Assembly: GCF_022701195.1 (NCBI RefSeq)
Contig: NZ_CP078089.1
Span: 1 to 64,000, forward strand
Reading direction: 5' to 3'
DNA: 64,000 bases
From: Allobaculum mucilyticum
GTDB lineage: Bacteria > Bacillota_I > Bacilli_A > Erysipelotrichales > Erysipelotrichaceae
Under the pieces are notes generated by a model, which saw nothing but the letters and a program-made list of their open reading frames with translations, had not been told where the DNA came from and did not search any database. A program made the translations under genes and the position numbers. This document shows, in pieces, positions 37,679-48,739 of this stretch (position 1 is its first letter; the number at the start of each line of letters is the position of its first letter).

Positions 37679-39358
37679 GTGCACACCAGCAGAAGGACAA
37701 GAAATATCAATTTGATCTGCGTGTGCCTGGTCATTCTGGCTGGATGTACCCGCATGTTTTTTAAACGGCATTCTATTGAGAGCATTTCGTGCAACATCAT
37801 TATCTTTGCTCTTTTTATTGCAGCCGTGTGTATCTGGGCCTGGCAGATCCAGATCCGGATTCTCCGGCTGGAAGTCAGAAGAAATCTGATCTGCATGGCT
37901 GCGCTCATTGTGTTCTGGATGACGCTTCGCACCATCAAATACGGGTTTACACCGCTGGGGCACTTTACTGAGCGGTATGCGTGGTACTTGTACTATGTGC
38001 CTGTGATCCTTATCCCGCTGCTCATGTTTCTTTCTGTGCTGTATATTGGAACGCCCCAGAACCGCCTTCTGAACAGAAAATGGAATCTGCTGTATATTCC
38101 GGCTGCAGCGCTGGTGCTGGGGGTGCTGACTAACGATCTCCATCAGCTGGCCTTCCGGTTTCCCGGAGGCATAATCGGAACAGGAAATAATATCTATACC
38201 CATGGCCCTGTCTATTATCTTTGCATGGCATGGATGGTCATCCTGTTTCTGGCCATACTGTTCGTTACATTTAAACGGTGCGCGGTTCTTGGAAACCGGA
38301 ATAAGATCTGGATCCCCATAATGATGCTGGCAGCCGGACTTATTTATGTGGTGCTTTTCATAGGCGGATGGGAAACGGAGATAAGCAGGGCGCTGACGGT
38401 ACCGGAATTGGGCTGCTTTTACCTTTGTGCCTGGATGGAAACGCTGATCTGTATCCATCTGTTTCCATCCAACGACAGATATGGAGATTTCTTTCACGCT
38501 TCTTCAATCTGTACAGGCATATCGGATGAGAAGGGGAAGATCTGTTACGAATCTGCCCGCAGTATATCGGTAAGCCCTGAGCAGATCGGTCAGGCACAGG
38601 AGACTGATGTTTATCTGCATGAGGGAAAACTTGCTCTGAGAAGCCATGAAATCCATGGCGGATTCGGGTACTGGCTGCGGGATCTTGAAGAAGTCAATCA
38701 GCTGAACAGACAGCTGGAAGATCTGGGCGATGTGCTGGAAGAAGAGAACTCCATACTGGATGCGGAAAACCGGATGGAAGAAGAAAAAGAACGGCTTCGG
38801 CAGAAAAACAGACTGTATGACTGTATCGCCAGAGATGTCAGTGAACGTCTTGACCGGATCAGCGCACTGATCGACAACCCGCCAGATGGTCCTGACGAAT
38901 TTAAAAAGATCATAACGTATGCATGTGTCTTATGTACCTATATTAAGCGCCGCTCCAATCTGCTGCTTCTTGGCGACCAGCATCAGCAGATCAGCAGCGA
39001 TGAGCTTCGCCTGGCCATACTGGAATCACTTGAATATGTAAGACTGTACGGCGTCAGTGCCCAGGGATTCTGCAGGACCATGGGAATGCTTCCAAAGGCA
39101 GTCGTGCTGAACGCCTATGAAATCTTTGAAGAGATTCTGGAATCAGCTCTTCTGGAAACAGATGCCATACTGGTCAATTTAAAAGCAGAGGAGAATCTGC
39201 TTCAGATGCGGTTCACGGTAAGCTGGCCAGGCGGCTCCTTTGATCCACAACGGTTGCAGGCACTGGCAAAGGAAGCCGGCATGAACCTCTCTGCTCAGGC
39301 CGAAGAGGATACGCAGTATATAACTTTGGATCTGCCGGCTGGAGGTCAGGAATCATGA
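37679..39358 (+). CDS. multi-TM sensor protein, histidine kinase-like without clear catalytic boxes
   Basis: About 559 residues. Seven or eight transmembrane helices fill the first 290 residues (for example NLICVCLVILAGCTRMFF, YVPVILIPLLMFLSVLYI, IPIMMLAAGLIYVVLFIGG). A possible PAS-like stretch is followed by a coiled coil (LNRQLEDLGDVLEEENSILD) and a C-terminal domain in which I cannot find the N, G1 or G2 boxes of a histidine kinase. The layout resembles 7TM-type sensor kinases of Firmicutes but with a degenerate output half. I chose GTG 37679 because GGAGG lies 7 bp upstream; an in-frame ATG at 37616 lacks a site. Its stop overlaps the next start (ATGA), so it is coupled to the kinase gene and probably forms a two-protein sensor with it. 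Confidence 0.7.
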   Translation: MHTSRRTRNINLICVCLVILAGCTRMFFKRHSIESISCNIIIFALFIAAVCIWAWQIQIRILRLEVRRNLICMAALIVFWMTLRTIKYGFTPLGHFTERYAWYLYYVPVILIPLLMFLSVLYIGTPQNRLLNRKWNLLYIPAAALVLGVLTNDLHQLAFRFPGGIIGTGNNIYTHGPVYYLCMAWMVILFLAILFVTFKRCAVLGNRNKIWIPIMMLAAGLIYVVLFIGGWETEISRALTVPELGCFYLCAWMETLICIHLFPSNDRYGDFFHASSICTGISDEKGKICYESARSISVSPEQIGQAQETDVYLHEGKLALRSHEIHGGFGYWLRDLEEVNQLNRQLEDLGDVLEEENSILDAENRMEEEKERLRQKNRLYDCIARDVSERLDRISALIDNPPDGPDEFKKIITYACVLCTYIKRRSNLLLLGDQHQQISSDELRLAILESLEYVRLYGVSAQGFCRTMGMLPKAVVLNAYEIFEEILESALLETDAILVNLKAEENLLQMRFTVSWPGGSFDPQRLQALAKEAGMNLSAQAEEDTQYITLDLPAGGQES

Positions 39359-40673
39359 AGCCTTTTGATTCTCTTTCCCTTGCTGCCATGGGGGTTTATG
39401 CCAGCGGATTTCTGATCGTATGTGTTCTTTCAATTGCGATCCTGGTTATGGTCATTATGCTTCGGGCACGGAAACGGGTGCTGGCGATTTCCATTTCGCT
39501 GGTGGCTGTTTCTATGTTTACTCTCCAGTGTTTAGTGGATATTACCGGGCATATTTATTTCCACCATGAACTGAACGCAGTTGCCGGCTCTTTCGCAAAG
39601 CTGCCATGTGGAATCGTGCTGGCAATCCTGCTGCTCTCTGCCTGTATCGTGATCTTCTGTCTGGTTTTGATCCTCCGTAAGAAAAAGAGAGTCATAACAC
39701 CCAGTGCAGTAAAGGAAAGTTTAGATACATTGCCTGATGGGATCTGCTTTTCCGATGAGGAGGGAAGACCGCTGCTGGTGAATCTCTGTATGAACCGGAT
39801 CTCCGGCGACCTGTTCGGCCAGGAGATCTTAAGCAGCACCATATTCTGGGAGAGTCTGGGTCAGGGCGTTTTTTTAAACGAGGCAAAGCTTCTGAGAACT
39901 TCCCCTGCGATCACAGTCCAGAATACCGATGGAAAGGTATGGGATTTTCGCAGAAGGAAGCTTCTGATCGATAACTGCTGGTTCTATGAGATAACAGCCT
40001 TAGACGTGACAGAGCTGCATGATCTCAACATAGAGCTTACGAAAAGAAATGCCATCCTCGCTGAAGTAAACCGCCGGCTGCACAACTACAGCAGGGAGAT
40101 CGAAAAGGTAACAGCCGAGAAGGAACTTCTTGCCGCAAAATGCGTGTCCATGATGATCTGGGCAGAGCTCTTCTGGCCTATCGTTCCAGGTATCTGAGTG
40201 CTCCGGCAGAGAAAAGGGACCGCAAACAGCTTCTCGCTCTCTGGCGGCGGACGATTGCCGTTATGCGCGGCGAAGGGCGCAGCGAAAAAGGGCGCAGTGA
40301 CTGGGAGCTGCTGCTGCAGGCAGCACAAGCCGTGGATGTGGAAATGATCCTGGACGACTCTCTGCCGAAAGAGGGAAGTGCAAGAGAGATCCTTATTGCA
40401 GCTGTCCATGAATGTCTGACCAATACGGTCAAGCATGCCCATGGGCACAGACTTCAGATCGCAGTTACCACAGAAAATGGGGTGATGAAGGCGGACATCA
40501 CCAATGACGGAGAACAGCCATCAGAAATAATCAGAGAAACAGGCGGTCTGAAAAACCTTCGCATGACGCTCGAGCAGGCCGGCGGACGCATGGAGATCCA
40601 GTCCGTGCCGAATTTTTTGCTGCACATTGAAACAGGGGAAGGAGAAACAGGCAGATGCAGAAAACCAGAGTGA
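39355..40673 (+). pseudogene. membrane histidine kinase split by a -1 frameshift at its H-box
   Basis: Two frames join into one kinase of about 440 residues. The first (39355-40197) has three membrane helices, a PAS-like domain (LDTLPDGICFSDEEGRPLLV) and a coiled coil ending EKELLAAK. The second (from 40140) begins MRVHDDLGRALLAYR, a NarX/DegS-type H-box with the phosphoacceptor His. It continues with the N-box HECLTNTVKHAHG, the NDGEQPSE loop and GGLKNLRMTLEQAGG. The frames meet in the A-run 40137-40140; one missing A would explain the split. Slippage of AAA back by one base, or reinitiation at the ATG in the run, would also give product. It overlaps the response regulator gene by 19 bp. Confidence 0.65.
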
Positions 40674-47816: not shown

Positions 47817-47881
47817 GACTGGCGCAATCTGGCAGAGATTCAGATCATGACTGCTGCTGACGGAATGGGAGTTGTTTGGGT

Positions 47882-48739
47882 ATGAAGATAAGGAAAATGA
47901 CGATTGTATGGTTTGTACTGGCAGCACTGATGGCAGCAAGCCTCTTTGTTACTGCAGATGAGGATGCTAGTGTACTGACCTGGGCTGATGCTGTCTTTAT
48001 TGAAGATGGGAAAGTTTTGCCGGAAAACGCAGGAAAGCTGGTTGCTGTTTCAGGAACCCCGGTGATGGTGGAGCCTGCTGCAGATGAACAGTTAGGCATC
48101 GCCTTTACATCACCGCGGGTCCATCGCTTTTCATATGTATTAAAATATCATCCACATTTAAAAACCTGGGATTATGAATATGCGTCTTCTGATGATGCTA
48201 TTACAAGTACTCCGCTGACAGGACGGATGTACATCGGGGAATATGAACTGGATCCTGAACTCATCAATGAACTGGACGTTTACACCAATAAAGATATGGG
48301 CAAAGAGGAGTTCACAGAAGAATCCCTGGCACATTTGCAGGACATTGGCTCTCTTCTAAAGTGGGGCGGCAGGTACTGCTTTTCTGAGATCGAAGACAAG
48401 TACGATGCCAGCTTTGCGTGGGATAAGATGGAATCACTGGATGAACTGGATTACGTGTTCCACCCCGAGTGGGATAACACCCATATGATCTACTGGAGTC
48501 AGTGGGTACTCAGACCCGACGATAAGATCACGGTAGCGGGTATTCAGAAGGGAAATACCCTGCAGTACTGTGAGGATCTGTCCGGCAGTGTTTCAAAAAA
48601 ACGGATCGTCACCGCAGACGAGGTTGCAGACGGAGAGCCGGCAAATCCCATACCCACGAAGATCATCGGACTTCTGTTTGCTGCGCTTTTCGTATTTCTG
48701 GGCGTCCGGTCCATGCGAAAGAAGAAGAAAGAATACTGA
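47882..48739 (+). CDS. TMEM43-like membrane protein
   Basis: A 285-residue protein with an N-terminal helix (MTIVWFVLAALMAASLFVTA), a long extracytoplasmic beta-rich domain, and a C-terminal helix (IIGLLFAALFVFLGV) followed by a basic end (RKKKKEY). The domain features LPENAGKLVAVSGTPVMVEP and VHRFSYVLKYHPHLKTWDYE resemble the TMEM43/DUF1625 family, whose bacterial members are uncharacterised envelope proteins. ATG 47882 is preferred to the TTG two codons earlier, though the ribosome site (GGAG) is a little distant. It closes the plus-strand run that begins with the DUF4428 gene, and a terminator follows. Confidence 0.8.
   Translation: MKIRKMTIVWFVLAALMAASLFVTADEDASVLTWADAVFIEDGKVLPENAGKLVAVSGTPVMVEPAADEQLGIAFTSPRVHRFSYVLKYHPHLKTWDYEYASSDDAITSTPLTGRMYIGEYELDPELINELDVYTNKDMGKEEFTEESLAHLQDIGSLLKWGGRYCFSEIEDKYDASFAWDKMESLDELDYVFHPEWDNTHMIYWSQWVLRPDDKITVAGIQKGNTLQYCEDLSGSVSKKRIVTADEVADGEPANPIPTKIIGLLFAALFVFLGVRSMRKKKKEY

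Follow-up and report, generated by a model that had tools for sequence, protein, structure and literature searches.

Does a run of about 11 kb on the plus strand of an Allobaculum mucilyticum contig (NZ_CP078089.1, positions 1 to 64,000, this whole stretch of 64,000 nucleotides being called the window) encode one system, in which sensory genes control the membrane and zinc-ribbon proteins encoded behind them? The first-pass annotation, made from the sequence alone, had read the run as a two-component-controlled module of zinc-ribbon, TPM and TMEM43-like proteins. Pfam matches and open reading frames (ORFs) bear out much of its inventory, namely a sensor, a regulator, a receiver-like protein, a lipoprotein-like protein, a DUF4428 repeat protein, zinc-ribbon proteins and a TPM protein, all on the plus strand, to which the window coordinates below refer unless stated otherwise. 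Genes for a seven-transmembrane (7TM) sensor, a kinase and a LuxR-type regulator were found repeatedly beside those for a stand-alone receiver-like protein, here named RECl, and for SPFH, DUF4428, YdjG-type and TPM proteins. We lean towards reading the locus as a variant of the Bacillus ydjGHI-type membrane scaffold that lacks PspA and is coupled to a two-component system, and the copy in the window as a decaying one.

The recurrence was counted around RECl. A RECl profile matched in 8 of the 294 genomes of the window's order, in 1 of the 8 genomes of named loci, in 16 of the 300 genomes of the family to which the genome of locus L033 belongs, and in 3 of the 392 genomes of a phylum sample, these four samples overlapping. 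Five matches were left out of all counts, four of them falling in the regulator's own receiver (L150-L153) and one in the kinase/regulator region (L154), and the final set comprises 22 RECl genes. They come from 21 genomes, of which 7 belong to the window's order and 14 to the family of L033. The genome of L033 was labelled Oscillospiraceae by its depositor, and we infer that its family differs from that of the window; both are starting loci, the window having been given beforehand and L033 fetched by way of its YdjG-type gene. RECl has two-component genes no more than 10 kb away in 18 of the 22 loci, and at least one of the SPFH, DUF4428, YdjG-type and TPM genes (the module genes) lies within the same distance in 14 (the window, L033, L099-L103, L136, L137, L139, L140, L141, L143 and L146), with two or more in 11. 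When the two starting loci are removed, the linkage to module genes is 12 of 20, whereas module genes were found in 0 of 20 control stretches (19 kb each, at hand-picked positions in 9 of the same genomes), one of which contained a regulator-like match. By these RECl-anchored counts the neighbourhood grouping exceeds chance. The two-component genes stand together with DUF4428, zinc-ribbon and TPM genes in L033, L102 and L103, and with zinc-ribbon and TPM genes in L141 and L143; the DUF4428 match in L101 is weak and lies at a contig end. We also observed DUF6935 genes near RECl in 10 of the 22 loci (L033, L099, L100, L136, L137, L139, L140, L141, L143 and L146), a family of which our full-text literature search turned up no mention. 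On the regulator tree, the combination of RECl and module needs 7 changes (8.6 on average in shuffles), so it appears spread over divergent regulators and not confined to one clade. We conclude that the coupling of a pseudo-receiver two-component system to a PspA-less scaffold arose anciently or more than once.

The protein that anchors these counts, RECl (41455-41844 in the window), is a stand-alone degenerate receiver, as judged from a 22-gene alignment, an AlphaFold2 (AF2) model, Foldseek and profile matches in the PDB. The window's copy has no Pfam match at E 0.001. The AF2 model, made from the window and L033 sequences, has a predicted local distance difference test (pLDDT) score of 87.5, and all 50 Foldseek matches listed for it are receivers or receiver-like (best E 3e-06). 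Among PDB entries the RECl profile matches response regulators from E 1.7e-4, and its alignment with the regulator pair has a probability of 93%; together with the model this points to a receiver fold. In the alignment, in which the phosphorylation columns were assigned by eye, the column of the phosphorylated Asp holds Glu in 17 of the 22 proteins, Asp in 3 (the window, L141 and L149) and Ser or Gly in 2. All 22 have Tyr or Phe in the Lys column, and the region of the acidic pair is mostly Q and N. The full set of acidic pair, phosphorylated Asp and Lys that marks canonical receivers was not found in RECl across these 22 genes, and the proposed pseudo-receiver signature reads Q-N / E / Y-F at the phosphorylation residues. 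As a tentative proposal, RECl may found a family of stand-alone pseudo-receivers that links a split 7TM-sensor/kinase pair physically to a scaffold of SPFH, DUF4428, zinc-ribbon and TPM proteins, which would place a PspA-independent form of membrane maintenance on a two-component switch in apparently two Bacillota families. If the coupled reading is true, it would bring in a testable signalling part, a pseudo-receiver that recurs and carries a conserved Glu.

The sensory genes of the window, namely the sensor, the kinase pieces, the regulator and also RECl, all have their best relative among the loci compared in L141, which also has YdjG-type, TPM and DUF6935 genes. The first is a kinase-like 7TM sensor protein of the HisKA_7TM family (37616-39358; PF16927 E 4.3e-10; 42.8% over 560 residues to L141), which matched none of the kinase families. 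One His is invariant in 7 aligned 7TM sensors, its placement in an H box not being established, and the H box is invariant across 6 aligned partner kinases. The histidine kinase, previously taken for a single gene, is present in its parts but lies in two ORFs in different frames: a first piece with the membrane and linker part (39355-40197), matching residues 1-259 of the L141 kinase, and a second with the VHDDLG box and the ATPase part (40140-40673), matching residues 261-428 at 45%. The L141 kinase is a single ORF that aligns to 39355-40137 of the window in one frame and to 40140-40646 in another; a frameshift near 40138 breaks the window's gene, and no unbroken kinase comprising both H box and ATPase part was found there. 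The response regulator (40655-41284) has a receiver and a LuxR-type DNA-binding domain (PF00072 E 2.2e-17, PF00196 E 3.2e-18), is closest to that of L141 (62%) and keeps its phosphorylation pocket, with D10, D11, D56 and K107 common to L033. The gene overlaps described in the first-pass annotation are there, with the start at 39355 inside the sensor gene and the start at 40655 inside the second kinase piece. A strong intrinsic terminator (41301-41327), with an 11-pair stem and a T run, stands directly after the regulator and thus inside the run, contradicting the earlier statement that a terminator occurs only at its end.

Between the regulator and RECl lies a putative promoter/operator region (41351-41400), weak in the window, whose position matches that of repeats and -10 boxes elsewhere. 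By eye, most of 14 regulator-RECl gaps show one order of elements, a terminator-like hairpin being followed by a repeat and this in turn by a -10-like box. In a formal test, an inverted repeat with a -10 box was found in 11 of 15 gaps (the 14 gaps plus that of L108, a second two-component locus of the window's own genome, the L137 gap being trimmed to its last 260 nucleotides), compared with a mean of 4.06 and a largest count of 9 over 200 runs of shuffled gaps; L142, one of the 11, is probably another hairpin. The repeat without mismatches has two sites each in L102 and L103, one before RECl and one before a 454-residue ORF, and with 2 mismatches allowed it has 10 (L102) and 12 (L103) sites, near the expected 7.6 and 8.0. 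The copies at L102 741 and L103 536 are those upstream of the 454-residue ORF, which is a solute-binding protein by Pfam in L102 and there precedes a 530-residue ORF with a LuxR domain.

The zinc-ribbon and TPM proteins encoded behind RECl resemble those of a known envelope-stress operon. According to the passages on it in published reports (PMC11237479, PMC8581546, PMC9239133), in the B. subtilis pspA-ydjGHI operon YdjG consists of two zinc ribbons, a domain and a transmembrane segment, YdjH is a TPM protein, and YdjI belongs to the band-7 (SPFH) proteins and has a zinc ribbon at its C terminus. In the account given in PMC8581546, the operon is under sigma-W, and deletion of ydjG or ydjH abolishes the membrane recruitment of YdjI and PspA. 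In the window, a protein of YdjG-type layout, comprising two zinc ribbons, a conserved domain and a C-terminal hydrophobic segment (44177-45280; PF08271 E 6.6e-5, below the cut-off), adjoins a YdjH-type TPM-domain protein (45295-46131; PF04536 E 1.1e-24), and relatives also have, as in that description of YdjI, an SPFH protein bearing C-terminal zinc ribbons. The YdjG-type protein has relatives at 25-59% identity and, among the loci compared, its best matches are in L143, L139, L136, L141 and L033, all RECl-linked; the TPM protein is closest to that of L053, which is not. The locus differs from pspA-ydjGHI in that it adds DUF4428 and RECl, in that two-component genes adjoin it where the B. subtilis operon has sigma-W by the account in PMC8581546, and in that its own genome has no PspA by PF04012 and no SPFH gene at the window locus, the single PF13421 match being an open frame at 839.7-840.4 kb. 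It shares with the LiaRS-controlled lia operon, as outlined in PMC11237479 and PMC9239133, a regulator and kinase tied to membrane-stress proteins, but has a kinase-like 7TM sensor plus a separate kinase and other effectors, and PspA/LiaH were not found. With HisKA_7TM (PF16927) systems it shares the sensor family, but here sensor and kinase are separate, and RECl and the module adjoin them.

The DUF4428 protein (42538-43686; PF14471 E 7.6e-17) has a Met/Asn/Gly repeat, coded by a 63-bp tandem repeat of 4.8 copies, and a C-terminal zinc-ribbon-like tail; its model, from one sequence, reaches a pLDDT of only 38.6. Its closest relatives are in L146, which is RECl-linked, and then in L115, which is not and in which (119-1315, genome G025) DUF4428, a partial SPFH domain and a C-terminal zinc-ribbon tail stand in one protein, the SPFH segment scoring 54 bits with the SPFH profile while Pfam made no SPFH call. 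DUF4428 is described, in the part of PMC13190303 that treats it, as the N-terminal domain of some SNIPE nuclease homologs, and our reading, if true, would place it in a functional setting.

We then examined the module beyond RECl. In a set of 59 genomes that contains the window's own, the YdjG-type protein matched in 21, SPFH (PF13421) in 24 (21 over the cut-off), DUF4428 in 12 (9 over the cut-off) and PspA (PF04012) in 14 (9 over the cut-off). In 39 fetched YdjG-type loci, which are not all the matches, DUF4428 occurs in 2, PspA in 1 (L071) and TPM in 29 when the best profile per ORF is taken, or in 39 if any profile match counts. The scaffold module is common and its coupling to the sensor rare in these loci, because SPFH is present in 29 of the 39 as against 1 with the 7TM sensor and RECl. 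The co-occurrence expected at first pass, of a two-component system with DUF4428, zinc-ribbon and TPM genes, recurs in full in L033, L102 and L103 and without DUF4428 in L141 and L143, but as a minority pattern. On the YdjG-type tree the RECl label is clustered, with 4 changes, a number as low in 1 of 500 shuffles. Since the label follows taxonomy and the placement of the window is unsettled, we rejected this tree as proof that the genes were inherited together.

If the locus is indeed a scaffold coupled to a two-component system, the 7TM protein would sense an envelope signal and steer the neighbouring true kinase, which would phosphorylate the regulator, and the regulator would switch on a promoter ahead of RECl and the genes downstream. 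At sites where the membrane is under stress, the TPM and YdjG-type membrane proteins would gather the soluble zinc-ribbon proteins of the SPFH and DUF4428 types, by analogy with YdjG and YdjH acting for YdjI in B. subtilis, and RECl would probably act by binding either the kinase or a scaffold protein, tuning the signal. The first-pass interpretation, in which the sensory genes control an envelope maintenance or stress complex, is partly supported: the YdjG/YdjH-like parts fit the operon as published in the passages cited, but the kinase is broken and the coupling rare. It did not include an SPFH partner. We did not adopt its external, phosphatase-like TPM part, since a phosphatase role of TPM is doubted where PMC12419801 discusses it and an assembly role is favoured there and in the corresponding passages of PMC11237479. 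If the coupled reading is true, the YdjG/TPM/SPFH scaffold, described beside PspA in the B. subtilis accounts, would have a dedicated sensor system of its own in the absence of PspA.

Several observations weigh against such coupling, and some of them favour an alternative that we regard as rather unlikely, in which two unrelated units stand side by side, a two-component system with surface or secreted targets and an independent YdjG/TPM scaffold. The terminator after the regulator would separate the two, as would the 490-nucleotide gap ahead of the YdjG-type gene, which holds a hairpin (GGAAACCTG..CAGGTTTCC) at 44077-44103, read by eye and absent from the computed terminator list. No module gene lies within 10 kb in 8 of the 22 RECl loci (L098, L138, L142, L144, L145, L147, L148 and L149, a contig end shortening the view in L098, L144 and L147), and in three of these RECl is followed by Cna_B/VWA surface proteins (L142, L147) or a dockerin protein (L138); therefore the targets may be wider or different. 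The 7TM sensor is missing from 38 of the 39 fetched YdjG-type loci, and of 9 similar two-component loci that lack RECl, 2 (L108 and L152) have an SPFH or YdjG-type gene nearby. Further points concern the signalling parts: two-component genes within 10 kb are absent from the available DNA at 4 of the 22 RECl loci (L136, L139, L140 and L148); RECl is rare, with 1 of the 392 phylum genomes, the window's own, left after two regulator matches are dropped; and the window's RECl keeps Asp in the phosphorylation column. The window's own putative operator is among the four gaps that fail the inverted-repeat and -10 test (with L101, L137 and L138), and a shared operator before module genes was not found, the repeat of L102 and L103 being absent before SPFH. 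The YdjG-type protein of the window fits the published YdjG, as described in the passages cited, by layout and neighbours and is likened to it by description, not by sequence, and several neighbourhood profiles were seeded partly from the loci counted. Against two independent units, however, stands the presence of module genes at 14 of 22 RECl loci and in 0 of 20 controls, across divergent regulators.

The signs of decay raise a second alternative, that the window is a dead relic in which nothing works as a system any more, which we consider improbable. In the window's own genome the kinase is frameshifted, which makes control by it today doubtful and also weighs against the coupled reading; the SPFH gene is found away from this locus; and another copy of the two-component genes precedes an SPFH remnant. 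That copy (L108 6484-10840, at about 2757-2762 kb) comprises a second 7TM sensor, kinase and regulator, all open frames, followed after the regulator by a terminator-like hairpin, the repeat CCTGT-N8-ACAGG, a -10-like box and the remnant, which runs in two frames and aligns to the L033 protein from residue 27 on. A second zinc-ribbon membrane protein gene (46147-47816), counted at first pass with the YdjG-type gene as two zinc-ribbon proteins, is likewise broken, so that only the first of the pair is open: TGA codons interrupt its frame at 46528 and 47523, the frame changes between 47031 and 47043, and a 585-residue protein of L110 matches 46171-47031 (41%) and 47043-47810 (43%) in two frames (E 1.4e-129). 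Insertion sequences of about 1.66 kb in 3 of the 7 own-genome stretches examined also fit a relic. However, the frames of the regulator, RECl, DUF4428, YdjG-type and TPM genes are all open in the window, as is the SPFH gene at 840 kb, and some of the breaks may be sequencing errors. That the locus is an ordinary phage-shock (PspA) system seen in part is highly improbable, since, although its YdjG/YdjH-type parts are as in B. subtilis by the passages cited (PMC11237479, PMC8581546, PMC9239133) and a PspA gene adjoins SPFH and YdjG-type genes in genome G045 (L071), its own genome (92.5% complete) has no PF04012 match and a PspA profile built in this analysis finds none in the 22 RECl loci.

Among the remaining features, a small lipoprotein-like ORF (41911-42435), so named by eye, matches nothing in Pfam or NCBIfam at E 0.001, and a relation to DUF5067 was rejected for lack of similarity. 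An imperfect inverted repeat (AGAGGGATCAGAT...) lies ahead of the YdjG-type gene at 43794-43860, with just two arms in the window. The last gene of the run (47876-48739) encodes a membrane protein of unknown family. Its TMEM43-like label was rejected, as it reaches 14.2 bits (E 0.028) with PF07787, under the cut-off of 23.3. The earlier idea that TMEM43 genes recur near the zinc-ribbon genes fares no better, with PF07787 over the cut-off in 1 of the 59 genomes, on a contig other than that of its zinc-ribbon gene, and the window protein itself matched in 1 of the 59, its own. On the minus strand, two overlapping ORF pairs at 35132-36769 have the appearance of frameshifted genes, with no Pfam match at E 0.01. 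Finally, the insertion sequences of the window's own genome (DDE_Tnp_1, about 1.66 kb) are 99.9% identical between L070 (6416-8070), where the element ends 77 nucleotides upstream of a second TPM/YdjG-type pair, and L109 (9818-11472), where it ends about 208 nucleotides upstream of the lone SPFH gene, with a third copy in L172; splitting of an older cluster by such elements is possible in this genome.

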